64,000 bases of DNA from assembly GCF_018603905.1 (NCBI RefSeq), contig NZ_JAHFZZ010000018.1:27054-91053 (forward strand), given 5' to 3'. Below, piece after piece: positions 18,205 to 33,109 of this stretch. The stretch comes from Nonomuraea sp. NEAU-A123. GTDB taxonomy: Bacteria; Actinomycetota; Actinomycetes; Streptosporangiales; Streptosporangiaceae. The notes beneath the pieces are model-generated. The model saw only the letters and a program-made list of their open reading frames with translations. It was not told the DNA's origin and made no database searches. Numbering within the stretch: position 1 is the first letter of the stretch; every line of letters starts with the position of its first letter. Made by a program: the position numbers and the translations under genes.

Positions 18205-19260
18205 ATGCGCACCAGGATTCCTCTTACCTCAGCCGCCGCTGCCCTGACGCTCACGCTCGCCGCGTGTGGCACTTCGTCGGGGAGCAGCGCAACGGCCAGT
18301 GACAGCACCGGCCCGGCCAGTCAGACGGTGTCGATCGGCTTCATCTCCCAGGCCCCCCGCAACGACAGCGGATTCACCCAGTACGGCCTGGCCGGGGTGA
18401 ACGCGGCCATCGCCGCGCAGAAGAACCTGAAGCTCTCCTCCATCGTCGACAACGTCTCCAACTCCCAGGAACAGATCAAGGGCCTGCAGACACTGGCCGC
18501 GGGCAACTCGATCGTCGTGGCCGACGGGGCGTCACTCAACAAGGCCGTGCAGGTCGTCGCGCCCAAGTACCCGAAGGTCAGGTTCATTCTGGTCGCGGCG
18601 CACACGGAGTCGTTCGCCGACAATGTGACCTCGGTCGACGCCGCCGTCGGCTACGACGCCATCGTCGTCGGTGCCGTCGCCTCGACGCTGTCGAAGTCGA
18701 AGAAGCTCGGGATGCTGGCGGGACTGCAGGTTCCGGCCTCCGCCAGTTGGTATTACGGCATGGTTCAGGGCGCCGGGCTCGACACCTCGGGCGCCAAGGT
18801 GGTGCAGACCTACACAGGCGACTACAACGACGTCGGCAAGGCGAAGCAGGCCGCCGAAGCGATGATCGCGACTGGCGTCGACTCGATCCTGTCCGACCTG
18901 GACAGCGGTTCTCAGGGCGTCTACCAGGCCTCCGACGCCGCGAGCTCGACAGTGGACGTCTATCAGGTCTTCGGCCTGGACTGTAAGGCCGGCAAGAACA
19001 TCATCGGCTCCGGCGTGGTCAACTGGTCGGCGATCCTGCAGGACTCGGTGACCGCCGCGGCGGCCGGAAACCTTCCCGCCGGGGCGATCAGCTATGGCCT
19101 GGCCAAGGGCGCGGTGAAGTTCGAGTTCTGTCCGGGCAAGGCGACGCCGGCGGCCAAGGAGCTCGCTGACAAGGTGACCAAGCAGCTGATCGGCAACGAG
19201 ATCACCCCGGCGGCGAACGTCCTGCTGCCGAAGCCGTCGTACGCCTTCGCGCAGCGCTAG
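18205..19260 (+). CDS. BMP-family ABC transporter substrate-binding lipoprotein
   Basis: 351 residues from ATG 18205, with GGAAAGGG 5 bases upstream; an upstream in-frame ATG at 18166 lacks a site. Signal sequence RTRIPLTSAAAALTLTLAAC ends in a lipobox, with Cys lipidated and anchored outside the membrane. The mature protein begins with a Ser/Thr/Gly linker then VSIGFISQAPRNDSGFTQYG, a family landmark. Basic membrane protein (PnrA-like) binders take up nucleosides; the Treponema RfuA relative binds riboflavin, so aromatic heterocycles are precedented ligands. First gene of the operon, 11 bases from the ATPase gene. Confidence 0.93.
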   Translation: MRTRIPLTSAAAALTLTLAACGTSSGSSATASDSTGPASQTVSIGFISQAPRNDSGFTQYGLAGVNAAIAAQKNLKLSSIVDNVSNSQEQIKGLQTLAAGNSIVVADGASLNKAVQVVAPKYPKVRFILVAAHTESFADNVTSVDAAVGYDAIVVGAVASTLSKSKKLGMLAGLQVPASASWYYGMVQGAGLDTSGAKVVQTYTGDYNDVGKAKQAAEAMIATGVDSILSDLDSGSQGVYQASDAASSTVDVYQVFGLDCKAGKNIIGSGVVNWSAILQDSVTAAAAGNLPAGAISYGLAKGAVKFEFCPGKATPAAKELADKVTKQLIGNEITPAANVLLPKPSYAFAQR

Positions 19261-19270
19261 GCCGCTGGCG

Positions 19271-20830
19271 ATGTCCAACCGAACGGATTCCACCGTCGTA
19301 CGCCCGCCGGCCCTCCGCCTCCGCGGAGTCACCAAACGCTTCGGCGCCTTCACCGCGAACGATCGCGTCGACCTCGACATCAACCGGGGCGAGATCCACG
19401 CGCTGCTCGGGGAGAACGGCGCCGGGAAGACGACCCTGATGCGTATCGTCACCGGCTTGTACCAGCCCGACGAGGGCGAGATGCGGCTGGACGACGAGAC
19501 GACCCGGTTCAGAAAGCCGGAGCACGCCCTGCGCGCCGGAATCGGCATGGTGCACCAGCACTTCACACTCGTGCCGACGCTCACGGAGCTGCAGAACCTG
19601 GCGATGCGCCCGGCGCGCTTCCCGTGGCGCAACGCGACGGCTGACGTACGCCGGCGCTCGGAGCAGATCGCGGCCACGACGGGCCTGCGGATCGATCCCG
19701 ACCGCCTGGTGGCCGACGCCTCCATCGGCGAGCGTCAGCGGCTGGAGATCGTCAAGCTGCTGTGCCGAGGCGCCCGGATTCTGATCTTCGACGAACCGAG
19801 CGCCGCGTTGAGCCCCGGCGAATGGGACGAGCTGGCCGCACTGATGCGAAAGCTGGCGGCGGAGGGGCACGCCATCGTGCTCATCTCCCACAAGCTCACG
19901 GAAGTGTTCGCCGTCGCCGACCGCTTCACCGTCCTTCGGGCCGGAGCCGTCGTCGGGACCGGGCTCGTCGCGGACGTCACCTCGGACGAGCTGGTGACGA
20001 TGATGGTGGGCGGCCTGGTCACGGAGCGGCCGGCGCGGGCGCCCATCGAGCCGGGCCCGCCGGTGCTGAGCATCCGAGGGCTGGCGGTGGCCCGTGACCC
20101 GCTCGACCCCAAGAGCCCGCCGGCCTTGAGCGGGATCGACCTCGAGGTCCGTGCCGGGGAGATCCTCGGCATCGCCGGCGTGGCAGGCAGTGGTCAGAAC
20201 GAGCTGGTCGAGGCGGTGATGGGAATCCGGCCGGCGTTGTCCGGCCGGATCGAGCTCGACGGCGAGCCGTTCGAGGATCGTACGCCGAGGCGCTTCTACG
20301 AGTCCGGCGGCGCGCTCATCCCCGAGGACCGCCACCACGTCGCGATCGTCTCGGGCATGACCCTCTGGGAGAACGTCACGATGCGGGCGCTCCGGCGACC
20401 GCCACTGAGCCGCCGGGGCATCCTGAACGTCTCCGCGGCACGCGCCGAGACGCGGCGGCTGATGACCGAGTTCGACATCCGAGCCGACACGGAGAAGACC
20501 CCGATCGGCCGGCTGTCCGGTGGAAACCAGCAGAAGGCCGTGCTGGCGCGAGAGTTCTCCGACCACCCGGCGCTGCTCATCGCCGTGCAGCCGGTGCGCG
20601 GCCTCGACGTGCGTGCGACCGACTTCGTCTACCGGCAGCTCAGCGAACATCGGGCGCGCGGCGGAGCGGTCCTGCTCATCTCCATGGATCTCGACGAGAT
20701 CATCGCCATGTCGGACCGGATCGCCGTCCTGGCCCATGGGCGGATCACCGGCGTGGTGGACGCGGACGACGCGACGAGAACGCGCATCGGCGCCCTCATG
20801 ACCTCAGCGGAGGACACGCCATGCTCATGA
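19271..20830 (+). CDS. ABC transporter ATPase with two nucleotide-binding domains
   Basis: 519 residues. Domain 1 (about 15-245) has Walker A LGENGAGKTTLMRI, signature SIGERQRLEIVK and Walker B ILIFDEPSAALSP. Domain 2 (about 265-505) has a degenerate Walker A (GVAGSGQNELVEA), signature LSGGNQQKAVLA and a Walker B with AVQPVRGLDV instead of DEP. This asymmetry, one canonical and one degenerate site, is normal for sugar/nucleoside-type (RbsA/NupA-like) importers. It couples to the two permeases that follow; its stop overlaps the first permease start (ATGCTCATGA). Confidence 0.95.
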   Translation: MSNRTDSTVVRPPALRLRGVTKRFGAFTANDRVDLDINRGEIHALLGENGAGKTTLMRIVTGLYQPDEGEMRLDDETTRFRKPEHALRAGIGMVHQHFTLVPTLTELQNLAMRPARFPWRNATADVRRRSEQIAATTGLRIDPDRLVADASIGERQRLEIVKLLCRGARILIFDEPSAALSPGEWDELAALMRKLAAEGHAIVLISHKLTEVFAVADRFTVLRAGAVVGTGLVADVTSDELVTMMVGGLVTERPARAPIEPGPPVLSIRGLAVARDPLDPKSPPALSGIDLEVRAGEILGIAGVAGSGQNELVEAVMGIRPALSGRIELDGEPFEDRTPRRFYESGGALIPEDRHHVAIVSGMTLWENVTMRALRRPPLSRRGILNVSAARAETRRLMTEFDIRADTEKTPIGRLSGGNQQKAVLAREFSDHPALLIAVQPVRGLDVRATDFVYRQLSEHRARGGAVLLISMDLDEIIAMSDRIAVLAHGRITGVVDADDATRTRIGALMTSAEDTPCS

Positions 20831-21921
20831 GACAGCAACTTCCGCGCGTGCTGATCACCGCGGGAGTGATCGTCGCTGCGGCGCTGATCGCCTCGCTGAT
20901 CCTGCTCGCGAGCGGAGTCGCGCCCGCGGCCGCCGTCTCCGCCTTCTGGGAGGGCACCTTCGGCAACAGCGCCAATGCCGGGACGACCCTCACCCAGGCC
21001 GTGCCGTTGTTGCTGGTCGCGCTCGGCTGGATCGTGGCGACCCGCGCCGGCCGCCTGCACGTCGGCTACCCCGGGCAGGTGATCGCTGGCGGCGCGCTGG
21101 CGACGGCGATCGGCCTGCACTGCGGTGGCCTGCCCGGTCCCCTGGCCGTGCTGGCCACCGCGCTCGCCGGAATCGCCGGCGGCGCGCTGTGGGCGGGACT
21201 GACCGCCTGGCTGTGGGCCTCGCGCGGCGTGCTGGAGATCATTTCCTCGCTGCTGCTCAACCTGGTCGCGGTGCAGGTGGCGGCCTGGCTCGTTCGCGGC
21301 CCCTTGCAGGGCTCGGCGAGCCAGGATCCCCAGACGGACAACTTCCCGCTGTCCACGATCTGGCCGAGCTTTCCCGGCGTCCCCGGTCAGACCCTGTCCT
21401 ACGACGTCGTGCTGCTGCCGATCTGCGCCGTCATCGTGGTGCTGCTGCTGTCCCGGACCGTCTTCGGGTTCGGGCTGCGCGCCTCCGGCGGCAACGGAGA
21501 GGCGGCTCGCTGGTCGGGCATCGACCCCAAGCGCGGCGGAGTGGCCGCCATCGTCATCTCCGGAGGCTTCGCCGGTCTGGCCGGAGCGGCCCTGCTCTTC
21601 GCCGGGACCGCTCCCTGGATGAGCGACGGCTTCGAGGCCGGGGTCGGCTTCAACGGCATCGCGGTCGCGCTGCTGGCGGGCAACTCACCGATCTTCGCGA
21701 TCCTCACGGCCATCGTGTTCGCGTCGTTGAACGTCGGCGGAACGGCCTTGCAGGCCACCCTCGACGTGCCGTCGTCGCTGGCCGAGGTGTTGCAGGGCGC
21801 GGTGATCGTGCTCGTGCTGCTGGCCGCCGTTCTGGCCGGACGACGTAGGGGACGGACGCCGGCGACCCAACCGGCCGCCGCCACGAAGAGCCTCGCGCTC
21901 GTGGGCACCGAGGAGGTCTGA
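20821..21921 (+). CDS. ABC transporter permease 1 (BPD_transp_2 family)
   Basis: 366 residues with about eight to ten hydrophobic helices. ATG 20821 overlaps the ATPase stop; ATG 20827 is an alternative start two codons on. The permease-family stretch GVLEIISSLLLNLVAVQ and the loop FGLRASGGNGEAARWSGID are those of nucleoside/BMP-type permeases, where the GxNxxAAxYxGI region contacts the ATPase. Located in the cytoplasmic membrane as one half of a heterodimeric pore. Confidence 0.93.
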   Translation: MLMRQQLPRVLITAGVIVAAALIASLILLASGVAPAAAVSAFWEGTFGNSANAGTTLTQAVPLLLVALGWIVATRAGRLHVGYPGQVIAGGALATAIGLHCGGLPGPLAVLATALAGIAGGALWAGLTAWLWASRGVLEIISSLLLNLVAVQVAAWLVRGPLQGSASQDPQTDNFPLSTIWPSFPGVPGQTLSYDVVLLPICAVIVVLLLSRTVFGFGLRASGGNGEAARWSGIDPKRGGVAAIVISGGFAGLAGAALLFAGTAPWMSDGFEAGVGFNGIAVALLAGNSPIFAILTAIVFASLNVGGTALQATLDVPSSLAEVLQGAVIVLVLLAAVLAGRRRGRTPATQPAAATKSLALVGTEEV

Positions 21922-21922
21922 C

Positions 21923-23023
21923 ATGGGAATCTTCGATGTCGCGTTTCTCGTCTCGGCGGTGACAATCGCCGCGCCGATCCTGCTGGCCGCGACCGGCGAG
22001 CTCGTCTCCGAACGCGCCGGTGTGCTGAACGTGGGCCTGGAAGGCGTCATGCTGACCGGCGCGTTCGGGGGTTACCTCGTGATGTGGGGAACCGGCTCGC
22101 TCGTCCTCGGGTTCCTCGGCGGCATGATCGCCGGCCTGCTGTTCGGCGCCATCATGGCCCTGCTCTCGATCGAGGCGAAGGTCGACCAGATCGTGTCGGG
22201 CATCGCGCTGACCCTGCTCGGCTACGGCCTCACCGCGTTCCTCAACGAACGCTTCCTCGTCCCGTCGCGGACCTTCGAACCGCTGCCCCGGCTCGCGATC
22301 CCGTTGCTGAGCGACATCCCGGTGATCGGCCCGGTCCTGTTCCACCAGGACGTGTTCATCTACGCCACGGCGATCCTGCTCGTCCTCGTCGTGCTCGCGC
22401 TCAGCCGTACCACCTGGGGCATCAACCTCAAGGCGGTCGGCGAAAGTCCCATCTCGGCCGACGCGGCCGGGGTGGGCGTCCGCGGGATGCGATGGGCCGC
22501 CGTGCTCTTCTCCGGCCTCTGCGCCGGTGCGGCCGGCGCCTACCTCTCCATCGGCGACGTCGGGGTGTTCCGCGAGGGCATGACCGGCGGCCGGGGCTAC
22601 CTCGCCATCGCCGCGGTGCTCTTCGGCGGCTGGCGGATGGCGGGGCTCGGGATCGCGGCGATGATCTTCGCGGTCGCCGACGCGACGCAGCTCAGGCTGC
22701 AGGCCATCGGTGTCATCCCCCGCGAGGTGTGGGTGGCCGCGACGATCCTCGTCGTGCTCGGGATGGTGCTCGGCCGGATGCGGCGCGGCGGAGGTGCCCG
22801 GTGGCTCGCCTCCGGGCGACCCACCGGCATCGAGGTCGCCGGGCTCGCCCTCGTCGTCGTCCTCTCCGCCCTCGTCCTCATATCCCCCTCCATCACGTTG
22901 CCGGTGTCTCTGTGGCTTGGCATGCCCTACCTCCTGGCGCTGGTCGCTCTCGGCACCGAGGGAAAGCGGCGGCACAGGGCCCCCACAGCACTGGCGATTC
23001 CCTATCTGCGAAGTGAGGTCTAG
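21923..23023 (+). CDS. ABC transporter permease 2 (BPD_transp_2 family)
   Basis: 366 residues, starting one base after the stop of permease 1. Begins ITIAAPILLAATGELVSERA-like, then GVLNVGLEGVMLTGAF, the hallmark of the second permease of BMP systems, and INLKAVGESPISADAAGV near residue 175. The C terminus carries an extra ~60 residues beyond the typical end, with two more hydrophobic helices (GLALVVVLSALVLI and a following LGMPYLLALVAL), which is unusual. Pairs with permease 1. Confidence 0.93.
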   Translation: MGIFDVAFLVSAVTIAAPILLAATGELVSERAGVLNVGLEGVMLTGAFGGYLVMWGTGSLVLGFLGGMIAGLLFGAIMALLSIEAKVDQIVSGIALTLLGYGLTAFLNERFLVPSRTFEPLPRLAIPLLSDIPVIGPVLFHQDVFIYATAILLVLVVLALSRTTWGINLKAVGESPISADAAGVGVRGMRWAAVLFSGLCAGAAGAYLSIGDVGVFREGMTGGRGYLAIAAVLFGGWRMAGLGIAAMIFAVADATQLRLQAIGVIPREVWVAATILVVLGMVLGRMRRGGGARWLASGRPTGIEVAGLALVVVLSALVLISPSITLPVSLWLGMPYLLALVALGTEGKRRHRAPTALAIPYLRSEV

Positions 23024-23028
23024 CGGCC

Positions 23029-23928
23029 GTGATCACCGATGTACATACGCATTTCTGGGTCCCGGACCATCAGGGACCGCCGTGGACCGACGGCCTCGGC
23101 CGCGTCTCCACCCGCCTGGCCGCGGACTCCATCAACCGTGTCACCGTCGAGTCCTACCGGCGGCGGGTCGCCCCCGCGGAACGGACCATCGTGTTCGGCC
23201 TGCAAGCTCAGGCGTCGGGGATCATGGTCCCGAACGACGCCGTGGCCGCCTTCGTACGCGAAGTCGGCGGCCAGACCGTCGGGTTCATGTCGGTGGACCC
23301 CCTGCGGCACGACGCGGTGGACGAGATCGAGCGGTGTCATGCCGACCTCGGGTTGTGCGGTATCAAACTCGGTCCGATCTATCAGGGGACCTCGCCGCTG
23401 AACCCGTTGACGATGCGCGTCTTCTCGGCCGCCGAGCGGCTCGGCCTGCCCGTGATGATCCACCAGGGTGCGATCTTCGCCAACGCCGGCCGGCTCGCCG
23501 ACGCCAACCCGTTGCTGATGGACGACGTCGCGATCGCGTTCCCGGACCTGCGCGTGGTCATCGCCCACATGGGTCACCCGTGGGTGTACGAGACCGCCAT
23601 CGTCATGCGGCGGAACCCGAACGTGTACGCCGACACCTCCGCGATCGCGAGCCGGCCGACCGTGCTGGCCACCGCGCTGTCGGCGGCCAAGGAGTACGGC
23701 GTGCTCGACAAGGTGCTGTTCGGCAGCGACTCGCCCATGGTCTCGGCCGAGAGCGCGGCCACCGCGCTCACCCGCATCGTGACTCGCATGCAGCACATCG
23801 CCCACACGCCCATCACGGACGAGGAGCTGCACGCGCTGATGCACCGCCCCTCCTTCGAGCTGCTCGGGATCCCCACACCCGCCGAACTCGAGCTCGTCCC
23901 TTCCGTCCAACAAGGAATGCGCCCATGA
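23029..23928 (+). CDS. Amidohydrolase-superfamily enzyme (ACMSD-like)
   Basis: 299 residues from GTG 23029. TIM-barrel metal hydrolase/decarboxylase pattern: DVHTHFWVPD (HxH) at the N terminus, GIKLGPIYQG near 112, PVMIHQGAIF (His) near 143, VVIAHMGHPWVYE (His) near 180 and LFGSDSPMVSAE (Asp) near 232. Members hydrolyse C-N or C-O bonds or decarboxylate aromatic acids without redox cofactors. Within this operon it could open or decarboxylate an intermediate; which is not decided by the sequence. Its stop overlaps the next start (ATGA). Confidence 0.85.
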   Translation: MITDVHTHFWVPDHQGPPWTDGLGRVSTRLAADSINRVTVESYRRRVAPAERTIVFGLQAQASGIMVPNDAVAAFVREVGGQTVGFMSVDPLRHDAVDEIERCHADLGLCGIKLGPIYQGTSPLNPLTMRVFSAAERLGLPVMIHQGAIFANAGRLADANPLLMDDVAIAFPDLRVVIAHMGHPWVYETAIVMRRNPNVYADTSAIASRPTVLATALSAAKEYGVLDKVLFGSDSPMVSAESAATALTRIVTRMQHIAHTPITDEELHALMHRPSFELLGIPTPAELELVPSVQQGMRP

Positions 23929-24686
23929 CCGGGACACCGTCCGTTTTTCTCGACGCCCATCAGGTGCTGGCAGGACCACTGCCCGAAGAGGTGTCGATGG
24001 AGCCCATCATCGAGGGGGTGCCCTTCGCGTACGAGAAGACGCTCTTCGACGGCGCCGACGGCTTCTTCGCGGTCTGGGCCTGCGACGCGGGGGTGTTTCC
24101 CCGGGTCAAGGACCGGCGCGGATCGTTCATGTACATCATCTCCGGCGAGGCCACGATCACCGACGACGACGGCACGTCGCACGAGCTGACGGCCGGCAGC
24201 GTGCTGGTGCTGCCGTTCGGCTGGGTGGGCACGTGGCACATCCGGGAGACGATCCGCAAGGTCTATCTGCACACCAGCCCGGTTCCCCCGCTGCCGGACG
24301 CGATCGTCGCGTCCGCGTTCATGCCCGCGACCCAGGTGCTCGAAGGGGCGCTGCCGATCGAGGTGCCGATGGAACCGGTGACCCGCGGCGCGCGCACCGC
24401 GAAAGAGGCCGTGGTCTTCGACGGCCCGGACGGCCACTGCGCCGTCTGGGAGTGCGAGCCGGGGGTATATCCGCGGGTCAAGGACCAGCGCGGATCGTTC
24501 ATGTACATCATCTCCGGCGAGGCCACGATCACCGACCGCGACGGCACGTCGCACGAGCTGACGGCCGGCAGCGTGATCGCGCTCCCTTACGGCTGGGTGG
24601 GCACCTGGGACATCCACCGGACCATCCGCAAGGTGTACGTCCACAGCACACCCTCCTCCGACCAACCTCGACAGGACACCACATGA
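23925..24686 (+). CDS. Tandem double-cupin protein (DUF861-like)
   Basis: 253 residues made of two cupin units of about 124 residues each. Each unit contains RGSFMYIISGEATITD, DGTSHELTAGSV, a GWVGTW segment and a terminal IRKVYxH strand, as in the cupin_3/(S)-ureidoglycine-aminohydrolase-like group. Classic metal-binding His residues are sparse, so catalysis is uncertain. At DNA level 24102-24203 and 24474-24575 differ at only 3 of 102 bases, far less than the flanks, so the cores were recently duplicated or homogenised. ATGA overlap on both sides places it firmly in the operon; role unknown. Confidence 0.85.
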   Translation: MTGTPSVFLDAHQVLAGPLPEEVSMEPIIEGVPFAYEKTLFDGADGFFAVWACDAGVFPRVKDRRGSFMYIISGEATITDDDGTSHELTAGSVLVLPFGWVGTWHIRETIRKVYLHTSPVPPLPDAIVASAFMPATQVLEGALPIEVPMEPVTRGARTAKEAVVFDGPDGHCAVWECEPGVYPRVKDQRGSFMYIISGEATITDRDGTSHELTAGSVIALPYGWVGTWDIHRTIRKVYVHSTPSSDQPRQDTT

Positions 24687-25210
24687 TCAACGACGACCCT
24701 TACGCCGCGGTCACCCCGGTGCCGGCGCTGGACGTACGCAGCGATGACCTCCGTCGCGGAGAGGAGATGCCGCTGGCCTTCCGCGACCCGCAGATCGGCG
24801 GCGCCAACACCTCACCGCACCTCGCGTGGAGCGGGTTCCCGCCGGAGACGAAGAGCTTCGCGGTGAACTGCTACGACCCTGACGCGCCGACCGGAACCGG
24901 TTTCATGCACTGGGCGGTGGCCAACATCCCCGCCGAGGTGACGTCGTTGCCGGCCGGTGCCGGGGCCCTCGACGGCCCGCTGCCCGCCGGATCCCTGACG
25001 CTGCCGAACGACCTGCGGATGCGTCAGTACATCGGGCCCAACCCGCCACCCGGTTCCGGTCGTCACCGCTACGTCTTCATCGTCCACGCGGTCGACGTCC
25101 CCCATCTGGACATCGACCCTGACATGACCCCGGTCGTGCTCGGCTTCAACCTGCACTTCCACACCCTGGCCCGCGGCAGCATGACCGTCTGGACAGACGC
25201 GGTCGGCTGA
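24683..25210 (+). CDS. YbhB/YbcL-family (PEBP) protein
   Basis: 175 residues from ATG 24683, overlapping the cupin stop. Family landmarks: NTSPHLAWSGFPPETKSFAV, CYDPDAPTGTGFMHWAVANI (the DPDAP and H-W anion-pocket residues), YIGPNPPPGSGRHRYVFIVH and a C-terminal LARGSMTVW. PEBP proteins bind phosphorylated or anionic ligands; bacterial members have no settled enzymatic role. Its presence inside a catabolic operon suggests binding of a pathway intermediate, but that is inference. Confidence 0.9.
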   Translation: MINDDPYAAVTPVPALDVRSDDLRRGEEMPLAFRDPQIGGANTSPHLAWSGFPPETKSFAVNCYDPDAPTGTGFMHWAVANIPAEVTSLPAGAGALDGPLPAGSLTLPNDLRMRQYIGPNPPPGSGRHRYVFIVHAVDVPHLDIDPDMTPVVLGFNLHFHTLARGSMTVWTDAVG

Positions 25211-26400: not shown

Positions 26401-27308
26401 CCTCCCCATCCCGCGTCGTCCTCGGCGACGTCGAGGTCACGCGGGTGCAGGAGTACGCGGGTCCCAGTCCCGCCACGCCGTCGTTCATCTTCCCCGACGG
26501 CGACCCCGGCTACTGGGCCGACAACGCGGGCTGGCTCGACCCCGCCTTCTACGACGCGCGGAGCGGCACCTTGCGTTCGGTGCTGCACACCTGGCTGATC
26601 CGCAGTCAGGGGATGGTGATCCTCGTCGACACCGGCGCCGGTAACGGCAAGGAGCGTCCGTACGCACCCGTGTACGGGCATCACGACACCCCGTATCTGG
26701 AGAATCTCCTGGCCGCCGGGGTGGCGCCGGAGGACGTCGACATCGTGATCAACACGCACCTGCACGTCGATCACGTCGGGTGGAACACCCGGCTGGACGG
26801 GCGCGCGTGGGTGCCCACGTTTCCCAACGCCCGCTATCTCATCCCGGAGCCGGACTTCCTGTACTGGGATCCCGTTCGCACGCCCCGCCCGCCGGGCGAC
26901 GGCAACCAGAACGTCTTCGAGGACAGCGTCATGCCGGTGCGCCGGGCCGGGCTGATCGACCTGTGGAACGGCGAGCACCGGATCAACTCGGAGCTCGTCC
27001 TGCGGGAGGCTCCGGGCCACACGCCAGGGTCCGCCGTCCTGCGGCTGGACTCGAAAGGAGCCGGCGCGCTCTTCGTGGGCGACGTGCTCCATTCACCGGT
27101 GCAGATCGTCTCTCCCGACGTCAACAGCTGTTTCTGCGAGGACCCGGCCATGGCGCGGGCCACGCGCCGCCGGCTGCTCGCCGAGGCGGCGGACCGCGAC
27201 CTGCTCGTCTTCCCCGGGCACTTCGGCGGCCACTCGGCCTGCCGGGTGGATCACAGCGGTACGGACGTCTTCGTCATTCGTGACTGGGCCGACTTCGCCC
27301 GAATCTGA
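26394..27308 (+). CDS. Metallo-beta-lactamase-fold hydrolase
   Basis: 304 residues from GTG 26394, overlapping the monooxygenase end. Zn-binding motif INTHLHVDHVGWN (HxHxDH), then REAPGHTPGSAVL (His), LFVGDVLHSPVQI (Asp) and FPGHFGGHSA (His): a complete dinuclear site. The arrangement is that of N-acyl-homoserine-lactonase-like enzymes, a group that includes pyridoxolactonase. A lactonase step fits the neighbouring monooxygenase and GMC enzyme. Cytoplasmic; no signal peptide. Confidence 0.88.
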   Translation: MVTSPSRVVLGDVEVTRVQEYAGPSPATPSFIFPDGDPGYWADNAGWLDPAFYDARSGTLRSVLHTWLIRSQGMVILVDTGAGNGKERPYAPVYGHHDTPYLENLLAAGVAPEDVDIVINTHLHVDHVGWNTRLDGRAWVPTFPNARYLIPEPDFLYWDPVRTPRPPGDGNQNVFEDSVMPVRRAGLIDLWNGEHRINSELVLREAPGHTPGSAVLRLDSKGAGALFVGDVLHSPVQIVSPDVNSCFCEDPAMARATRRRLLAEAADRDLLVFPGHFGGHSACRVDHSGTDVFVIRDWADFARI

Positions 27309-27335
27309 CCACCGACTCTCTACCAGGAGCACACC

Positions 27336-27719
27336 ATGAACAAGGACCTGTACGACGCCGGGCTCGCCGTGCGGCGCCAGGTGCTCGGCGACGCCCACGT
27401 CGACGCCTCCCTCGCGGCCGCCACCGACTTCTCCCGTGACATCCAGGAGTACGTCACCCAGTACTGCTGGGGCGATCTGTGGAACCGGCCGGGACTCAGC
27501 CTGCAGGAACGCAGCCTCATCAACCTCGCCATGATCACCGCCCTCAACCGTTCGCACGAGTTCAAGGCGCATGTGCGCGGCGCTCTCAACAACGGCGTGC
27601 CGCGCGAGAAGATCAAGGAGGTGCTGATGCAGAGCGCCTTCTACTGCGGCGGACCGGCGGCACTGGAGGCGTTCCGCCTGGCCGCCGAGGTCTTCGAGAC
27701 GATGGACGCCGAACGGTGA
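27336..27719 (+). CDS. Carboxymuconolactone decarboxylase-like protein
   Basis: 127 residues. Typical AhpD/CMD-fold sequence: FSRDIQEYVTQYCWGDLWNR, LNRSHEFKAHVRGALNNGV and IKEVLMQSAFYCGGPAALEA. This matches the PcaC-type group (RGALNNGV then YCG). Members decarboxylate a muconolactone or have peroxidase activity; the two-Cys CxxC of AhpD is absent, which favours the PcaC-like role. Here the substrate would be an intermediate of the local pathway. Its stop overlaps the next GTG start (GTGA). Confidence 0.88.
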   Translation: MNKDLYDAGLAVRRQVLGDAHVDASLAAATDFSRDIQEYVTQYCWGDLWNRPGLSLQERSLINLAMITALNRSHEFKAHVRGALNNGVPREKIKEVLMQSAFYCGGPAALEAFRLAAEVFETMDAER

Positions 27720-28618
27720 GACTCGACCACGTTGGTTTCATCGGCCTCGGGAACATGGGAGCGCCGATGGCGGCGCACCTCGCCGACGCCGGCCACCGGC
27801 TGACGGTCGCGGACGCGGCACCCGGCGTGGCCGCCGCCTTCGTCACCGAACACCCGGCCGCGGCGGTGGCGAAGGGGCCCGAGTCGTTCGCGGCGGTTCA
27901 GATCCTGATCCTCATGCTGCCGAACTCGGCGGTCGTGGAGGAGGTACTCGAGCGCGACGGGGTGGCCGACGCTCTGCGGCCCGGGTCTCTCGTCATCGAC
28001 ATGAGCTCCTCCGAACCGCTGCGCACCCGCGCGCTCGCCGCCCGCCTGGCCGCCAAAGGTCTCTCCATGCTGGACGCGCCGGTGTCCGGCGGTGTCCGCG
28101 GCGCGAAAGCGCGCACGCTCTCCGTACTCGTCGGCGGGTCCCCGCACGAGCTGGTGCGGGCGACCCCGGTGCTGCAGGCCATGGCCCGCACCGTCATCCC
28201 CGTCGGCGACATCGGATCGGGCCACACGGCGAAGGCGCTGAACAACCTCGTCTCGGCGGCCACCATCTCGATCACCGTCGAGGCGCTGGCACTGGCCGAG
28301 TCCTTCGGCATCTCCCCCGAAACGATGACGCACGTGCTCAACAGCTCGTCGGGCCGGAGCAACACCAGCGAGAACAAGGTGTCCCAGTTCATGACGAGCG
28401 GCAGCTTCGACTCCGGCTTCTCGCTGCGGCTGATGTCCAAGGACGTGGACATCGCGGTCGCCCTGGCGCGGGCCCTCAGCCGGCCCGCCGAGATCGCCGA
28501 CGGGGTGGCGCGCCAGTGGCGGCGCATCGCCGGCGCCGCGCCGGCTCAGACCGACCACACCGAGATGTACGCGCTGCTGGGCGCGGGTACGTCGATGAGC
28601 GAGGCGGAGTCCGCATGA
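27716..28618 (+). CDS. Beta-hydroxyacid dehydrogenase (3-hydroxyisobutyrate dehydrogenase family)
   Basis: 300 residues from GTG 27716. N-terminal NAD(P) fold VGFIGLGNMGAPMAAHLADA; substrate motif MLDAPVSGGVRGAKARTLSV; catalytic-lysine region SGHTAKALNNLVSAA; C-terminal cofactor segment FSLRLMSKDVDIAVALA. The family oxidises primary alcohols beta to a carboxylate (hydroxymethyl-acids), as in 3-hydroxyisobutyrate and 2-(hydroxymethyl)glutarate dehydrogenases. A hydroxymethyl-succinate/oxobutanoate type product of ring cleavage would suit it. Stop overlaps the next start (ATGATGA). Confidence 0.93.
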   Translation: MRLDHVGFIGLGNMGAPMAAHLADAGHRLTVADAAPGVAAAFVTEHPAAAVAKGPESFAAVQILILMLPNSAVVEEVLERDGVADALRPGSLVIDMSSSEPLRTRALAARLAAKGLSMLDAPVSGGVRGAKARTLSVLVGGSPHELVRATPVLQAMARTVIPVGDIGSGHTAKALNNLVSAATISITVEALALAESFGISPETMTHVLNSSSGRSNTSENKVSQFMTSGSFDSGFSLRLMSKDVDIAVALARALSRPAEIADGVARQWRRIAGAAPAQTDHTEMYALLGAGTSMSEAESA

Positions 28619-30048
28619 TGAGCACACCGCTGCTGCACTGGATCGACGGCAAGGCGGTGCCGTCCACCGGCGGCACGACGCGCGTCGGCACCAATCCGTC
28701 GACCGGCGGCCCGGGAGCCGAGGTGAGCCTGGGCACCGCGGCCGACGTGGACTCCGCCGTGCGAGCCGCGCACGGCTCCGCCAAGGGCTGGCGGCACCTG
28801 AACTCACTCGACCGTGGCCGCGTCCTCGCGGCCATCAGCCGCCGGCTGCTGGCCGACATCGACGAACTCGCCGCGATGGAGAGCGCCGACACCGGCAAGC
28901 CCCTCGCCCTGTCGACGGCCGAGATCCGCGGCGCCGCCGAGTATTTCGAGTTCTACGCCGCCCTGGTGAACCTGCCGGTCGGCGAGGTCCTCGACATCCA
29001 ACCGAACCTGCACGTGTACACGCTGCGGGAACCGCTGGGCGTGGTGGGCGTGATCACCCCGTGGAACCTGCCGCTCAACCAGGCGGCACGCGCCTGCGCA
29101 CCGGCCCTGGCCGCCGGCAACACCATCGTGGCCAAGCCCGCGGAGTCGACGTCGCGCACCACCGTCGCGCTCGCGCGGATCGGCAGCGAAGAAGGGCTGC
29201 CGCCGGGCGTGTTCAACGTGGTGCTCGGCCGGGGTACCGAGGTGGGCACGGCCATCGTGCGGCACCCGCTGGTGCGCAAGGTCGCGTTCACGGGTTCGGT
29301 GCCGGTCGGGCAGGAGATCGGCCGGATCGCCGCCGATCGCATCCTGCCGCTGACCCTGGAACTCGGCGGCAAGTCGGCGAACATCGTCTTCGCCGACGCC
29401 GACCTGGAGTTCGCCGCGTCCGAGGCGGTGCGTGCGTTCACCACCAACGCCGGTCAGGTCTGCTCCTCGGGCACGCGCCTGCTCGTGCAGCGTGAGGTCC
29501 AGGAGCGGTTCACCGCGGCTGTGGTGGCCGCTACCGGCAGGCTGCGTCCCGGCCACGAGGTAGGCCCGATGATCACCCGTGGCCAGTGGGAGACCGTACA
29601 GAAGTACTTCCAGATCGCCGAAGAGGAAGGCGCCACCGCGGAGATCGGCGGCGGCGCGCCCCTCGACCCCGAACTCACCGCGGGGTTCTACGTCGAGCCC
29701 ACCATCTATTCCGGCGTGACCAACGAGATGCGCATCGCCCGCGAGGAGATCTTCGGCCCGGTTCTCGTCGTCATCCCGTTCGAGACGGAGGACGAAGCGG
29801 TGGCGCTGGCCAACGATTCGGACTTCGGCCTGGTCGGCGGGGTGTTCACCGCGGACATGTCCCGGGCCATTCGGGTGGCGGAGTCCCTCGAAGCCGGACA
29901 GGTGTACATAAACTCGTGGTCGACCCAGTCGGTGCAGATGCCCTTCGGCGGGCACAAGCACAGCGGCTATGGGCGCGAGAAGGGCATCGAAGCCCTGAAC
30001 CACTACTCCCACGTCAAGAGCATCAGCATCCGCCTGACGGGCCGGTAG
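28615..30048 (+). CDS. NAD(P)-dependent aldehyde dehydrogenase 1
   Basis: 477 residues from ATG 28615 (or 28618). Complete ALDH: GVVGVITPWNLPLNQAARAC, FTGSVPVGQEIGRIA, catalytic Glu in LELGGKSANIVFADADLE, catalytic Cys in TTNAGQVCSSGTRLLVQ, and the PFGGHKHSGYGREKG end block. It oxidises an aldehyde to the acid in the cytoplasm. One of two ALDHs of the operon, about 35% alike by eye, so they probably serve different steps. A 32-base gap separates it from the second ALDH. Confidence 0.95.
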   Translation: MMSTPLLHWIDGKAVPSTGGTTRVGTNPSTGGPGAEVSLGTAADVDSAVRAAHGSAKGWRHLNSLDRGRVLAAISRRLLADIDELAAMESADTGKPLALSTAEIRGAAEYFEFYAALVNLPVGEVLDIQPNLHVYTLREPLGVVGVITPWNLPLNQAARACAPALAAGNTIVAKPAESTSRTTVALARIGSEEGLPPGVFNVVLGRGTEVGTAIVRHPLVRKVAFTGSVPVGQEIGRIAADRILPLTLELGGKSANIVFADADLEFAASEAVRAFTTNAGQVCSSGTRLLVQREVQERFTAAVVAATGRLRPGHEVGPMITRGQWETVQKYFQIAEEEGATAEIGGGAPLDPELTAGFYVEPTIYSGVTNEMRIAREEIFGPVLVVIPFETEDEAVALANDSDFGLVGGVFTADMSRAIRVAESLEAGQVYINSWSTQSVQMPFGGHKHSGYGREKGIEALNHYSHVKSISIRLTGR

Positions 30049-30080
30049 ACATTTTGCTTATTCATGAGGAAGGCACAGAC

Positions 30081-31577
30081 ATGGCCGAGGCGCGCTTCGC
30101 CCCCACCGTCAGCGATGACATCCGGCTCGCGCAGAAGATGCTCATCGGCGGCGAGTGGGTCGGCGCGATCAGTGGCAAGACGTTCCCGGTGTACGACCCC
30201 GCCGACGGGCAGCTGATCGTCGAGGTTCCGGCCGGTGCGGCGGCGGACGTCGATCGTGCGGTGGCGGCGGCACGCGCCGCGCTCGCGCCGGGGAGCACCT
30301 GGCGGTCGATGACGCCGCAGACGCGCGGGCGGCTGATCTGGAAGCTGGCCGATCTCGTCGAGCAGAACGCCGAACGGCTGTCGATGCTCGACTCGATCGA
30401 CAGTGGTAAGCCGATCAACGAGATGCGGTACTTCGACATCCCGTTCTCGGCGGACGTCCTGCGCTACTACGCGGGCTGGCCGACGAAGATCACCGGTGAC
30501 ACCATCCCGATCTCCTACCCGGCCAGTTCCGGTGGCCGCTTTCACGCGTACACCCTCAAGGAGCCGGTCGGCGTCGTCGGCGCGATCGTGCCCTGGAACC
30601 TGCCGTTGCTCATGGCGATCAAGAAGCTGGCGCCGGCCTTGGCGACCGGCTGCACCATCGTCCTCAAGCCGGCCGAGCAGACGCCGATCTCCATCGCGCT
30701 GCTGGCCCAGCTCACCATCGAGGCCGGCATCCCCGCCGGGGTGGTCAACTACGTCACCGGGTTCGGGGAGAGCGCGGGTGCGGCCCTTGTCGAGCACCGC
30801 GGCGTCGACAAGGTGACGTTCACCGGGTCGGTCGAGACCGGTAAGGCGATCGTCCGCTCGGCGGCCCAGGACCTCAAGCGGGTGTCGCTGGAGCTCGGCG
30901 GCAAGTCCCCGAACATCGTGTTCGAGGACGCCGACCTCGACGCCGTCGTCGCGGGCGCGGCGGCCGGCGCGTTCGCCACCCAGGGCGAGAGCTGCATCGC
31001 CGGATCCAGGCTCTACGTGCAGCGCGCCGTCTTCGACGAGGTCGTGCAGCGCCTCGCCGACCACGCGGCCTCGCTCAAGCTCGGGCGTGGCATCGATCCC
31101 ACCACCCAGATGGGCCCGCTCATCTCCGCCGAGCACCGCGACAAGGTGCTCGGCTACGTCAAGATCGGCGTTGCCGAGGGCGCCAAGGTCGTCACCGGTG
31201 GCCGCGCCCTGGAGGGCGAGGGGTTCTTCGCCGAGCCCACCGTGCTGGTGAATGCCCAGCCCGACTCGCGCATCATGCACGAAGAGATCTTCGGGCCGGT
31301 CGTCTGCGCGGTCCCGTTCGACACCGAGGCGGAGGTGCTGGCATTGGCCAACAACACGCGGTTCGGGCTGGGCGCCGCGGTGTGGACCAAGGACATCTCG
31401 CGCGCGCACCGGATGGCGGCGGCCATCGAGTCGGGGCAGGTGTGGGTGAACTGCTACCAGGCGGCGGACTCCGCCCTTCCGTTCGGCGGGACGAAGGAGT
31501 CCGGCTGGGGCCGCGAGACGTGCCGGGAGAACCTTGACGAGTATCTCGAGACCAAGACCGTGGTGGTGTCGCTGTGA
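30081..31577 (+). CDS. NAD(P)-dependent aldehyde dehydrogenase 2
   Basis: 498 residues from ATG 30081 with GAGGAAGG upstream. Motifs: GVVGAIVPWNLPLLMAIKKL, FTGSVETGKAIVRSA, LELGGKSPNIVFEDADLD (Glu), FATQGESCIAGSRLYVQ (Cys) and PFGGTKESGWGRE. Resembles broad-range or betaine/phenylacetaldehyde-type ALDHs. Its stop overlaps the GMC gene start (GTGA). In the pathway proposed here it would oxidise a semialdehyde or a pyridine aldehyde. Confidence 0.95.
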   Translation: MAEARFAPTVSDDIRLAQKMLIGGEWVGAISGKTFPVYDPADGQLIVEVPAGAAADVDRAVAAARAALAPGSTWRSMTPQTRGRLIWKLADLVEQNAERLSMLDSIDSGKPINEMRYFDIPFSADVLRYYAGWPTKITGDTIPISYPASSGGRFHAYTLKEPVGVVGAIVPWNLPLLMAIKKLAPALATGCTIVLKPAEQTPISIALLAQLTIEAGIPAGVVNYVTGFGESAGAALVEHRGVDKVTFTGSVETGKAIVRSAAQDLKRVSLELGGKSPNIVFEDADLDAVVAGAAAGAFATQGESCIAGSRLYVQRAVFDEVVQRLADHAASLKLGRGIDPTTQMGPLISAEHRDKVLGYVKIGVAEGAKVVTGGRALEGEGFFAEPTVLVNAQPDSRIMHEEIFGPVVCAVPFDTEAEVLALANNTRFGLGAAVWTKDISRAHRMAAAIESGQVWVNCYQAADSALPFGGTKESGWGRETCRENLDEYLETKTVVVSL

Positions 31578-33109
31578 CACGGGGCGAGGGTGACCGGGTC
31601 TACGACTACATCGTCGTCGGAGCGGGCACCGCCGGCTGTGTGGTGGCGGCCCGTCTCAGCGAAGATCCGTCCCGCAGCGTACTGCTGATCGAAGCCGGTC
31701 GCGCCGAGACGAGCGACCGGATCACGACCCCCCACGCCTGGCCCGCCCTGTACAAGACCGACCTCGATTGGGCGTACCAGACAGTGCCCCAGCCGAAGAC
31801 GGGCCGAGTGCACGACATTCCCCGGGGCCGGACGGTGGGCGGCAGCGGAAGCACGAACGCGATGGCCTTCCTGCGCGGCGACCGCCTCGATTTCGACACC
31901 TGGGCGTACGCGGGTTGCACAGGATGGGACTACGCATCCGTCCTGCCGTATTTTCGACGGGCAGAGTCCGTGCCGAACGGCGATCAGCGTTACCGGGGCA
32001 GGACCGGTCCGCTTCGCCCGGCCCCGGCTGGCCGGTTGCATCCGCTGTCCCAGGCCTACCTGGCCGCGGCGCAGCAGGCCGGGCATCCGCTGACCGCCGA
32101 CCTGAACGGCGCGCGGCTGCGGGGTGTGAGCAGCCATGATCTCCTCATCGTGGACGGGCGCCGGCAGAGCACCGCGACGGCCTACCTCGAACCGGCGCTG
32201 AGCCGCGCCAATCTCGAACTGCTGCCGGGAGCCTTCGTCGATCGCCTCACCTTGGACGGCGACCGCTGCACCGGCGTCGACGTGGTCGTCGACGGCGAGC
32301 TGATCCACTGTACGGCGAGCGCGGAGGTCGTGCTCTGCGCCGGAGCCATCGGCACTCCGCACATCCTCCTGTGCTCCGGCATAGGCCCGGCCGACGAACT
32401 CGAGCGGGTGGGGGTGAAGGTGCTGCACGACCTGCCCGGCGTGGGACGGAACCTACAGGATCACATCATCCTGGCCGGTCTGACCGTTCCCGCGCGCGGA
32501 GCCCTGCCCCCGCCGTCCGGCAATCTCGGGGAGGTGACCCTGCTGCTCGACAGCGAGCCGGGGCGCGCCTCGATCGACCTGCAGATCGTGTTCATCCATG
32601 TGCCCTTCACCAACCCCTGGCAGGCGGCCCCGGAGCACGGTTACACCTTCGGCGTCGGGCACATGCGCCCGGCGAGCAGAGGGTCGCTGACCCTCGCGAG
32701 CCCCGATCCGAAGGTCTCGCCGCTGATCGACTTCCGCTACCTCGACGAGATCCACGATCTGCGCGCTCTCGTCTCAGGCGTGCGCCACGCGCTTGAGATC
32801 AGCGACATGGCGGCGTTCGACGAATGGCGGGGTGGCGGGCATCCGCTCGTCGGCGCGGACGACGAGACGATCGCCGCCTTCGTCCGCACCGCGGTGCAGT
32901 CCTACGGTCATGCCGCCGGCTCGTGCCGGATGGGAGTCGACGCGTTGTCGGTCGTCGATCCGCGGCTTCGCGTTCAGGGCCTCGCGGGCCTGAGGGTGGC
33001 CGACGCCTCCGTCATGCCGGAGATCGTCTCCACCAACACCAATGCGGCGACCGTGATGATCGCCGAAAAGGCCGCCGATCTCCTGCGGGGGCTGACCGGC
33101 GCGGAGTAA
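31574..33109 (+). CDS. GMC-family FAD alcohol oxidoreductase
   Basis: 511 residues from GTG 31574. FAD-binding start YDYIVVGAGTAGCVVAARLS; GMC signature 1 GRTVGGSGSTNAMAFLRG; signature 2 region GAIGTPHILLCSGIGPA; C-terminal active site YGHAAGSCRMG (His) and STNTNAATVMIAEKAA (Asn). It oxidises a primary alcohol to an aldehyde. GMC enzymes include choline and glucose oxidases and pyridoxine 4-oxidase. Last gene of the operon; an inverted repeat follows at 33169. Confidence 0.95.
   Translation: MTRGEGDRVYDYIVVGAGTAGCVVAARLSEDPSRSVLLIEAGRAETSDRITTPHAWPALYKTDLDWAYQTVPQPKTGRVHDIPRGRTVGGSGSTNAMAFLRGDRLDFDTWAYAGCTGWDYASVLPYFRRAESVPNGDQRYRGRTGPLRPAPAGRLHPLSQAYLAAAQQAGHPLTADLNGARLRGVSSHDLLIVDGRRQSTATAYLEPALSRANLELLPGAFVDRLTLDGDRCTGVDVVVDGELIHCTASAEVVLCAGAIGTPHILLCSGIGPADELERVGVKVLHDLPGVGRNLQDHIILAGLTVPARGALPPPSGNLGEVTLLLDSEPGRASIDLQIVFIHVPFTNPWQAAPEHGYTFGVGHMRPASRGSLTLASPDPKVSPLIDFRYLDEIHDLRALVSGVRHALEISDMAAFDEWRGGGHPLVGADDETIAAFVRTAVQSYGHAAGSCRMGVDALSVVDPRLRVQGLAGLRVADASVMPEIVSTNTNAATVMIAEKAADLLRGLTGAE

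Follow-up and report, generated by a model that had tools for sequence, protein, structure and literature searches.

A 14-gene operon of Nonomuraea sp. NEAU-A123 with an MHPCO-type monooxygenase and a possible 5-pyridoxate-like route for the breakdown of a pyridoxine-type compound

Genes and features of the locus

The window analyzed here is a stretch of 64,000 nucleotides from Nonomuraea sp. NEAU-A123, a large-genome actinomycete. In Table 1, we have listed the features of an operon of 14 ORFs, all on the + strand, that runs from a BMP gene to a GMC gene, together with the regulator and conserved region that precede it. Gene families were assigned by using Pfam and NCBIfam and comprise Bmp, an ABC ATPase, two BPD_transp_2 permeases, Amidohydro_2, a tandem Cupin_3 protein (bicupin), PEBP, a FAD_binding_3 monooxygenase, Lactamase_B, CMD, a 3-hydroxyisobutyrate-type dehydrogenase, two Aldedh proteins and GMC. 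The bicupin, the PEBP and the PcaC-like CMD protein do not figure in the description given by the initial annotation.

The 13 junctions between operon genes span -10 to +32 bp when the amidohydrolase start is set at 23029 (junction +5), and these tight junctions, the gene families and the synteny in relatives bear out the same-strand operon that had been proposed for 18205-33109; its genes had also been said to overlap, which holds for 7 of the 13 junctions (by 4-10 bp) and not for the others. The DUF1989, OYE and PucR genes that follow (33241-36546) were excluded from the operon, as they lie behind a gap of 131 bp and are also not found 3' of the operon at two Acrocarpospora loci.

Table 1. 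Features of the operon and its upstream region, in window coordinates
Feature	Position	Strand	Evidence
GntR/FCD transcription regulator of the FadR type, probably controlling the operon	17152..17796	+	Pfam FCD 101 bits, GntR 75 bits
Conserved upstream region	17956..18138	.	three-genome alignment; strong conservation from TTGACA on
Upstream elements ATCTGACATGTCAGAT; TTGACA	17956-17971; 18054	.	three-genome alignment
Upstream inverted repeats CACCAT-N9-ATGGTG; AACTGG-CATA-CCAGTT	18088-18108; 18122-18137	.	three-genome alignment
BMP-family substrate-binding lipoprotein (SBP)	18205..19260	+	Pfam Bmp 93 bits; NCBIfam ABC_BMP_B6 42 bits (cut-off 400)
ABC importer ATPase	19271..20830	+	NCBIfam ABC_ATP_B6 454 bits (cut-off 670)
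ABC permease A	20821..21921	+	BPD_transp_2 131 bits
ABC permease B	21923..23023	+	BPD_transp_2 117 bits
Amidohydro_2 protein; may hydrolyze an amide or decarboxylate once the ring is open	23029..23928	+	PF04909 127 bits
Bicupin, two Cupin_3 domains	23925..24686	+	PF05899, 2 stretches, 118 bits
PEBP (YbhB/YbcL-type) protein	24683..25210	+	PF01161 124.5 bits
MHPCO-type FAD monooxygenase, proposed ring-opening enzyme	25240..26400	+	PDB MHPCO 3alj, E 1.3e-98
MBL-fold hydrolase, lactonase/organophosphate-hydrolase type	26394..27308	+	Lactamase_B 100 bits; PDB 4le6, E 1.5e-23
PcaC-like carboxymuconolactone-decarboxylase (CMD) family protein	27336..27719	+	TIGR02425 153.6 bits (cut-off 155.7); CMD 87 bits
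Beta-hydroxyacid dehydrogenase	27716..28618	+	PDB 9rb2 167 bits, 3cky 162, 3-hydroxyisobutyrate dehydrogenase 147
Aldehyde dehydrogenase 1 (ALDH1)	28615..30048	+	Aldedh 532 bits; full length in both Acrocarpospora genomes
Aldehyde dehydrogenase 2 (ALDH2)	30081..31577	+	Aldedh 590 bits; truncated in both Acrocarpospora genomes
GMC alcohol oxidoreductase	31574..33109	+	GMC_oxred_N/C

From the GntR gene to ALDH1 the locus is syntenic in two Acrocarpospora genomes, with protein identities of 84-97% (93% for the regulator in both), and a third relative has a 5-kb contig that carries six of these genes, the last one broken off at the contig end. Thirteen genes compared between the two Acrocarpospora species have dN/dS values of 0.08-0.44, which also include the period preceding the ALDH2 and GMC losses described below. 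The conserved region at 17956-18138 may act as promoter and operator; its TTGACA and inverted repeats ahead of the BMP gene fit the single promoter that had been proposed for the operon, although a sigma-70 scan over 17700-35200 found no promoter (shuffles 1.0).

The monooxygenase

When compared to the PDB, the monooxygenase scores 334 bits with MHPCO and 90 bits (E 2.2e-24) with the next different protein, a margin of 244 bits. A tree of 25 rows joins a window clade of four members to the MHPCO clade at 100/100, the MHPCO clade itself being supported at 99/95 and consisting of the Mesorhizobium loti enzyme and four actinobacterial sequences (L026-L029); the remaining 16 rows are monooxygenases that are either unnamed or carried by plasmids. 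The resemblance to MHPCO reported by the initial annotation is borne out by both comparisons, and the grouping with salicylate or hydroxynicotinate enzymes that it had named as counterevidence was not seen: a salicylate enzyme reaches about 54 bits and a 6-hydroxynicotinate enzyme about 63, a comparison by score rather than by full phylogeny, the tree holding no named enzymes of either kind.

In alignment, Y79, R207, Y219 and Y266 of the window enzyme correspond to Y82, R211, Y223 and Y270 of MHPCO, so that the active-site residues for which a check had been proposed are all kept. The most telling positions are Y82, C294 and A296, which every one of the nine joint-clade sequences has, as against 1, 0 and 1 of the 16 sequences outside it; R211, Y223 and Y270 are also conserved, but are found in 11, 11 and 5 of those 16. 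We take R211 and Y270 to be catalytic residues of MHPCO. Deprotonation of the substrate is ensured there by Tyr223 and Tyr82 (PMC6180312). Identity to the M. loti enzyme is 46% for the window enzyme as compared to 59-61% for the four actinobacterial pathway-I rows, and 43 positions are fixed differently between the two clades, including A298G in a loop that presumably faces the substrate. On these alignments, the window monooxygenase is an MHPCO-type enzyme of a sister form and not simply MHPCO.

KnmB1, which is 45% identical to MHPCO and 55% identical to CaeB6, hydroxylates a pyridine in karnamicin synthesis (PMC9838390), so that an identity of 46% is no proof of ring cleavage. The window enzyme could likewise be a pyridine hydroxylase that leaves the ring closed, with a role in biosynthesis or detoxification. 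The docked Arg205 and Tyr217 of KnmB1 (PMC9838390) are each offset by 6 from R211 and Y223 of MHPCO, and we suggest that these two residues may be shared. We consider this quite improbable, given the conservation of Y82, C294 and A296 and a set of 14 genes that follows a GntR regulator and combines an importer with oxidizing and hydrolyzing enzymes, none of them a PKS or NRPS.

Relatives of the monooxygenase were found at three loci in a contig scan, in nine genomes of a family sample (n=341) and three of a class sample (n=394), both at E 1e-75, and in its own genome alone in a phylum sample at E 1e-70 (n=396). A search of plasmids, our sole look outside the actinobacteria, gave 11 records at E 1e-40, the best of them 40% identical.

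Contrast with clusters for the 4-pyridoxate route

Six loci have monooxygenases of the MHPCO type (L026-L029 as assigned by the tree, L067 and L068 by BLAST), and all six hold relatives of the FHMPC dehydrogenase, class II aldolase and E-2AMS hydrolase of the 4-pyridoxate route (pathway I), none of which were found in the window operon. The best matches in its own genome are weak: 169 bits with the FHMPC dehydrogenase model NF042925 (cut-off 500; the L027 reference reaches 399), 77 bits at 32% identity with the L027 aldolase, which is identified as HMPDdc by its context (2z7b comes fifth among its PDB matches, at E 5e-14), and 89 bits over residues 3-123 for the E-2AMS alpha/beta hydrolase, for which the L027 query matches 3kxp at E 7e-71. 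These absences fit the 5-pyridoxate reading that the initial annotation had favored.

A PEBP of another group is present in all six of these clusters. As a marker common to both cluster types the PEBP is weakened, since the two kinds form separate groups (95/98 and 89/90, with the other forks of the tree unresolved); the window PEBP is nearer to a paralogue in its own genome (about 50%) than to those of pathway I, and in a MAG relative (L035) it is missing between the bicupin and the monooxygenase.

The operon could instead encode a variant of pathway I with a plain MHPCO and unrelated replacement enzymes, in which GMC and ALDH would oxidize first the 4-hydroxymethyl and next the 5-hydroxymethyl group, the MBL hydrolase would be the 4-pyridoxolactonase, and the Amidohydro_2 protein would replace the class II aldolase in decarboxylating 3-hydroxy-2-methylpyridine-4,5-dicarboxylate. 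Amidohydro_2 proteins include arene carboxylate decarboxylases, pathway I likewise uses MBL and GMC folds, and the MHPCO catalytic residues that we checked are all conserved. We nevertheless regard such a variant as distinctly unlikely: the window clade, with its lower identity and fixed differences, stands apart from that of M. loti MHPCO and the four pathway-I rows; the E-2AMS hydrolase is neither in the operon nor strongly matched in the genome; and the hydroxymethyl-acid dehydrogenase and the second ALDH would be left without a job.

Importer and entry-step candidates

All components of the window importer, which had been read as serving the uptake of a pyridine-type compound, fall below the curated cut-offs of the NCBIfam models for a putative B6 ABC transporter (NF047927-NF047930), the permeases scoring 139 of 400 and 194 of 465 bits (see Table 1 for the others). 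There are two other BMP operons in the same genome; one (L047) exceeds the window operon, with 469 bits for its ATPase and 81 for its SBP stretch, and the ATPase of the other (L048) has 333. The importer is thus ruled out as evidence for B6 and, as judged by these models, is not diagnostic. A BMP-class importer also adjoins the MHPCO cluster of L067, and its ATPase passes the NCBI B6 cut-off (755 vs 670), with incomplete permease stretches at 289 of 465 and 307 of 400.

Nor did the enzymes proposed for the entry steps live up to the statement that this gene set covers each step of the 5-pyridoxate route. The PDB match of the GMC protein with choline dehydrogenase (326 bits) outscores that with pyridoxine 4-oxidase, which ranks tenth of 45 at 272 bits, and the MBL hydrolase has 44 bits of the 325 required by the 4-pyridoxolactonase model NF047925 and 92 with the AidB lactonase model, far below its cut-off; its relatives on plasmids amount to 81 records (E 1e-40). 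Neither protein is specifically close to B6 enzymes. The GMC gene is missing at the Acrocarpospora macrocephala locus, and A. pleiomorpha retains residues 309-510 alone; losses in these genomes are confined to ALDH2 and GMC, the rest of the operon being intact with dN/dS <0.45. Two different losses in two relatives fit entry-step roles for ALDH2 and GMC, but could also mean that neither belongs to the pathway. As replacements elsewhere in Acrocarpospora, GMC proteins with long matches of at best 41% and 38%, and partial ones of <=45%, are not orthologues by identity, and around a GMC relative in a MAG (48%) no operon genes lie within the 9 kb read.

The compound degraded could be another 3-hydroxypyridine carboxylate than one derived from vitamin B6, e.g., of the 5-hydroxynicotinate type or a plant or microbial hydroxypyridine with CH2OH or CH2R, as the importer, GMC and MBL proteins are not B6-specific and MHPCO itself also cleaves 5-hydroxynicotinate (PMC6180312). 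This is the alternative that we take most seriously, and we still find it unlikely: outside the window type, all six loci detected at E 1e-75 in the family and class samples are B6-type clusters, one of them with the adjoining L067 importer.

Candidates for the steps after ring opening

In the amidohydrolase, H6, H8, H145, H180 and D234, which we take to be metal ligands, are invariant in 4/4 aligned relatives. At E 0.001 the protein has a single relative in the PDB, 3irs (E 8e-9), and its relatives occur in 21 of 200 genomes of the family at E 1e-40, 17 of them just 34-40% alike, and in one plasmid record (E 1e-30); none of the bicupin were found on plasmids (E 1e-25). With four closely related sequences as input, structure prediction gave poor models (mean pLDDT 41.5 for the amidohydrolase and 32.2 for the monooxygenase), which were not used. 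No deacetylating hydrolase could be recognized among the operon genes, and since an E-2AMS-type alpha/beta hydrolase is not among them, the role of the amidohydrolase is a guess.

For the dehydrogenase, an oxidoreductase without assignment (9rb2) tops the PDB matches and 2-(hydroxymethyl)glutarate dehydrogenase (3cky) comes second, in support of the earlier claim of enzymes for 2-(hydroxymethyl)-4-oxobutanoate; the best NCBIfam model is 3-hydroxyisobutyrate dehydrogenase (HIBADH, 191 bits, under its cut-off of 291.6). A place in the beta-ketoadipate pathway is ruled out for the PcaC-like gene, as none of the other enzymes of that pathway were recognized in the operon.

A proposed 5-pyridoxate-like route

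The explanation that we rank first, at a probability of roughly 0.5, is that this GntR-controlled operon encodes the import of a pyridoxine-type compound and its full degradation along a pathway II-like, 5-pyridoxate route. Pathway II, observed in Arthrobacter Cr-7 and Pseudomonas IA, has 2-(hydroxymethyl)-4-oxobutanoate as its end product (PMC3538738). Isopyridoxal gives rise to 5-pyridoxolactone, which has an inducible lactonase of its own for ring opening of the lactone (PMC8307608). Intermediates of this route keep a hydroxymethyl group, and the enzyme set of the operon fits it; a hydroxymethyl acid would be expected only if the C4 substituent outlasts ring opening. The fold classes of pathway II are present, the oxygenase alone being specific. 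The B6-breakdown reading is supported by the MHPCO-type monooxygenase and the missing 4-pyridoxate genes, but not as regards coverage of every step.

In the route that we propose, for which we infer all substrates and the order of steps, the vitamer would enter via the BMP-type ABC importer, GMC would oxidize a hydroxymethyl substituent, ALDH2 would carry the resulting aldehyde on to the acid or lactone, and the MBL hydrolase would open 5-pyridoxolactone to 5-pyridoxate. The monooxygenase would hydroxylate the ring and cleave C2-C3 to give an acetamidomethylene succinate that retains the hydroxymethyl group, from which the amidohydrolase, perhaps with the bicupin, would release acetate, ammonia and CO2 to yield 2-(hydroxymethyl)-4-oxobutanoate. 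An ALDH could oxidize this to 2-(hydroxymethyl)succinate and the beta-hydroxyacid dehydrogenase could form 2-formylsuccinate, which the CMD protein might decarboxylate to succinic semialdehyde, the substrate from which an ALDH would make succinate. The bicupin and the PEBP are without a clear place in this scheme. More tentative, and somewhat doubtful, are two of its particulars: that the branch continues past 2-(hydroxymethyl)-4-oxobutanoate via the dehydrogenase and the PcaC-like decarboxylase to succinic semialdehyde, and that the amide/enamine step, carried out in pathway I by an alpha/beta hydrolase, falls here to a metal amidohydrolase together with the bicupin.

The enzymology of the 5-pyridoxate route was worked out decades ago in Arthrobacter and Pseudomonas, and a search of the open-access literature, as judged from listings, turned up no paper linking it to genes. 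If the proposal is true, several enzyme activities without known genes would gain sequences together, what becomes of 2-(hydroxymethyl)-4-oxobutanoate could be tested, and annotation could separate the two B6 routes by the gene content beside the ring-opening enzyme. The contrast with the six pathway-I clusters suggests a simple rule for this: in clusters of the one kind MHPCO is accompanied by FHMPC dehydrogenase, aldolase and E-2AMS hydrolase, and those of the window type lack these three.

Comparison with known systems

The window enzyme shares with M. loti MHPCO not only the four aligned active-site residues but also P295 and A296, and differs from it in its separate clade. KnmB1 is likewise a relative of MHPCO, a likeness drawn here from its description rather than its sequence, and differs, as does CaeB6, in its biosynthetic setting; the authors who described it report that alignment did not reveal the catalytic residues of MHPCO (PMC9838390). 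With the pathway-I clusters of M. loti and the six loci, the operon has in common a PEBP gene, a monooxygenase of the MHPCO type whose catalytic residues are identical and, in L067, a BMP-class importer; it is set apart by the three enzymes that all six contain, and five of the six have an NMT1-type binding protein. Pathway II of Arthrobacter Cr-7 and Pseudomonas IA is described, in the source available, as biochemistry only, so that likeness to it is one of enzyme classes and not of sequence; the operon adds a bicupin, a PEBP and a CMD protein without named counterparts there, and it has a candidate for each of alcohol oxidation, aldehyde oxidation, the lactonase, the flavin ring-opening oxygenase and the enzymes for the hydroxymethyl oxobutanoate.

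Organization and conservation of the operon

The genome carrying the window is 12.7 Mb long with a GC content of about 70%, and its relatives, Acrocarpospora among them, are put in the same family (the A. macrocephala entry is filed under Streptosporangiaceae). The 14 genes that the initial annotation had read as one operon are confirmed as a same-strand run, with gaps of at most 32 bp and overlaps of 4-10 bp at 7 of the 13 junctions when the amidohydrolase is taken to start at 23029; protein families were assigned from Pfam and NCBIfam. The order from the GntR regulator to the first aldehyde dehydrogenase (ALDH1) is kept in A. macrocephala and A. pleiomorpha at 84-97% protein identity. A metagenome-derived relative (L035) has six operon genes on a 5-kb contig, which holds no PEBP gene between those for the bicupin and the monooxygenase. 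Upstream of the BMP gene, conservation is strong from a TTGACA at 18054 onward, in a stretch that contains inverted repeats. Because a sigma-70 promoter scan of 17700-35200 found none, and terminator-like sites are about as frequent as expected by chance (6 vs 4.1 in shuffles), we put transcription of the operon as one unit no higher than likely.

Features of the window and of related loci
Feature	Location	Strand	Remark
Operon	18205-33109	+	14 genes, BMP binding protein to GMC oxidoreductase
GntR/FCD regulator	17152-17796		ahead of operon
Monooxygenase	25240-26400	+	in operon
Biotin-dependent carboxylase	3144-9014	-	1957-codon open frame
RTX-type calcium-repeat protein	12443-13492		
NACHT-domain protein	13507-15765	-	
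ORF	15937-16902	+	just 5' of GntR gene
DUF1989, reductase and PucR genes	33241-36546		directly 3' of operon
A. macrocephala ALDH2 remnant	L021:14832-15551		
A. pleiomorpha ALDH2-GMC fusion	L022:14847-15650		
Pathway-I-type cluster	L027:6774-15549		reference
ORF 3' of MHPCO	L027:10944-11573		

Among the neighboring genes, the carboxylase is a single chain that combines biotin carboxylase, ACC_central, biotin carrier and carboxyltransferase domains, and the NACHT-domain and RTX-type proteins adjoin one another. The ORF next to the GntR gene, which to the eye resembles an integrase, has no Pfam match. Neither Acrocarpospora locus showed the genes for DUF1989 (UAAP2-like), an old-yellow-enzyme reductase and a convergent PucR regulator 3' of its operon.

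The operon ends differently in Acrocarpospora. In A. macrocephala the match to the second aldehyde dehydrogenase (ALDH2) stops at residue 209 and gives way to other sequence, and in A. pleiomorpha ALDH2 residues 1 to about 65 are fused in frame to GMC residues from about 305-309 to 510. These losses differ in form, the remaining operon is intact in both species, and neither genome has a GMC match above 45% identity elsewhere (best long matches, 41% and 38%). Most simply, ALDH2 and GMC would make up an entry module, and these species would begin with the acid or the lactone; mere decay of the 3' end is another possible explanation. Between the two species dN/dS is 0.08-0.44 for 13 genes, a measure that also spans the time before the losses.

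Relationship of the monooxygenase to MHPCO

The best PDB match of the window monooxygenase is the M. loti 2-methyl-3-hydroxypyridine-5-carboxylate oxygenase (MHPCO; E 1.3e-98, 334 bits); the nearest protein of another kind, tropone monooxygenase, reaches 90 bits (E 2e-24). In a 25-row tree, four window-type and five MHPCO-type enzymes (M. loti and the actinobacterial loci L026-L029) share one clade with 100/100 support, the MHPCO-type subgroup having 99/95; several own-genome outgroup rows, far from this clade, have long branches flagged by the program. The catalytic residues Y82, R211, Y223 and Y270 of MHPCO align with Y79, R207, Y219 and Y266 of the window enzyme. All nine joint-clade rows have Y82, C294 and A296, as against 1/16, 0/16 and 1/16 of the remaining rows; R211, Y223 and Y270 are less telling, since they are common outside it (11/16, 11/16 and 5/16). 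PMC6180312 assigns Tyr223 and Tyr82 to substrate deprotonation. The resemblance to MHPCO that had been proposed thus holds by score, clade and aligned residues. An affiliation solely with salicylate or hydroxynicotinate enzymes disagrees with the scores (at most 54 bits for salicylate hydroxylases and 63 for 6-hydroxynicotinate 3-monooxygenase, vs 334), the tree being one that holds no named enzymes of these kinds.

The two sister groups are fixed differently at 43 positions, including A298G. Glycine at 298 may be the older state, since it also occurs in nine plasmid and family outgroup rows (L030-L034, L049-L052, loci with less similar monooxygenases). The loop holding this position presumably lies at the substrate, where glycine would make room for a C4 group. 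Caution over ring cleavage by the window enzyme is called for by PMC9838390, according to which KnmB1, 45% identical to MHPCO, hydroxylates without cleavage; its authors were unable to identify the MHPCO catalytic residues in it by alignment.

Joint-clade enzymes were found (E 1e-75) in 9 of 341 family genomes, four of window type (our own, two Acrocarpospora and one metagenome-derived) and five of MHPCO type. The search found them in 3/394 genomes of the class sample and, at 1e-70, in 1/396 of the phylum sample, namely our own genome.

Clusters around the MHPCO-type enzymes

Six MHPCO-type loci were read: L026-L029 (enzymes 48-49% identical) and two outside the tree, L068 (same genus) and L067 (another family), with 76% and 59% identity, in that order, to the L027 MHPCO. 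In all six, relatives of a class II aldolase, FHMPC dehydrogenase, E-2AMS hydrolase and PEBP adjoin MHPCO; the nine loci whose monooxygenases are less similar all lack this set. In L027 the hydrolase matches 3kxp (E 7e-71), the dehydrogenase scores 399 bits on NF042925 (cut-off 500), and the aldolase matches 2z7b (E 5e-14), other aldolases matching better. The L067 importer ATPase exceeds its NCBI B6 cut-off (755 vs 670), and two incomplete permease stretches fall below theirs. We take these loci as putative clusters for pathway I, the 4-pyridoxate route of vitamin B6 breakdown. The ORF 3' of the L027 MHPCO is matched in 3/5 other such clusters. PEBP is discounted as a common marker, the window and pathway-I proteins falling in separate groups.

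Plasmids of Variovorax, Rhodococcus and Arthrobacter (L050, L051 and L052) carry MHPCO-family monooxygenases 37-40% identical to the window enzyme, adjoined by ABC importers. L050 and L051 also have ring-degradation or amidohydrolase-type genes alongside. All three probably belong to other heteroaromatic pathways.

A proposed route for the operon

PMC3538738 describes two routes of vitamin B6 breakdown, one leading to succinic semialdehyde (Pseudomonas MA-1 and M. loti) and another that takes seven steps and ends in 2-(hydroxymethyl)-4-oxobutanoate (Pseudomonas IA and Arthrobacter Cr-7), and in PMC8307608 isopyridoxal is converted to 5-pyridoxolactone, which is opened by its own lactonase. The second of these routes, the 5-pyridoxate route, leaves the C4 hydroxymethyl group in place, which removes the need for a C4 decarboxylase. 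Its ring-opened acid has a CH2OH adjoining the carboxylate and would so be of the kind that 2-(hydroxymethyl)glutarate and 3-hydroxyisobutyrate dehydrogenases act on.

In the PDB, the beta-hydroxyacid dehydrogenase of the operon scores 167 bits with a "probable oxidoreductase" and 162 with 2-(hydroxymethyl)glutarate dehydrogenase, its best matches, and 147 with 3-hydroxyisobutyrate dehydrogenase; its top NCBIfam model is the last of these, below cut-off (191 of 291.6). The PcaC-like decarboxylase is marginally below the PcaC cut-off (153.6 of 155.7), and the amidohydrolase has an invariant HxH, His, His and Asp, presumably its metal site. The operon also encodes the bicupin, the MBL hydrolase, both ALDHs and the GMC enzyme. 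Own-genome matches to the pathway-I proteins are weak: 169 bits on NF042925 for FHMPC dehydrogenase, 89 bits over residues 3-123 for E-2AMS hydrolase and 77 bits for the class II aldolase.

Of the B6 or pyridine route that the initial annotation had advanced, the MHPCO-type oxygenase stands, and the importer, GMC and MBL proved not to be B6-specific by score. On the B6 model, ATPases of other BMP operons in this genome reach 469 and 333 bits vs 454 here, and another binding protein 81 vs 42. Pyridoxine 4-oxidase ranks 10th of 45 PDB matches of GMC, below choline dehydrogenase and others; MBL scores 44 of 325 bits on 4-pyridoxolactonase and has relatives in 81 plasmid records. AlphaFold models of the amidohydrolase and the monooxygenase were set aside for poor quality. 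No genes for the 5-pyridoxate route were found in open-access literature by title or start of abstract, which is no proof, as subscription journals mostly lie outside it.

The 5-pyridoxate route is our leading reading of the operon, since its expected chemistry agrees with both the missing and the present genes; the order of steps is proposed from sequence and pathway facts. As judged from gene content, the MHPCO-sister enzyme sits in a different degradative operon: the pathway-I clusters have the aldolase, FHMPC dehydrogenase and E-2AMS hydrolase, whereas the window operon is without them.
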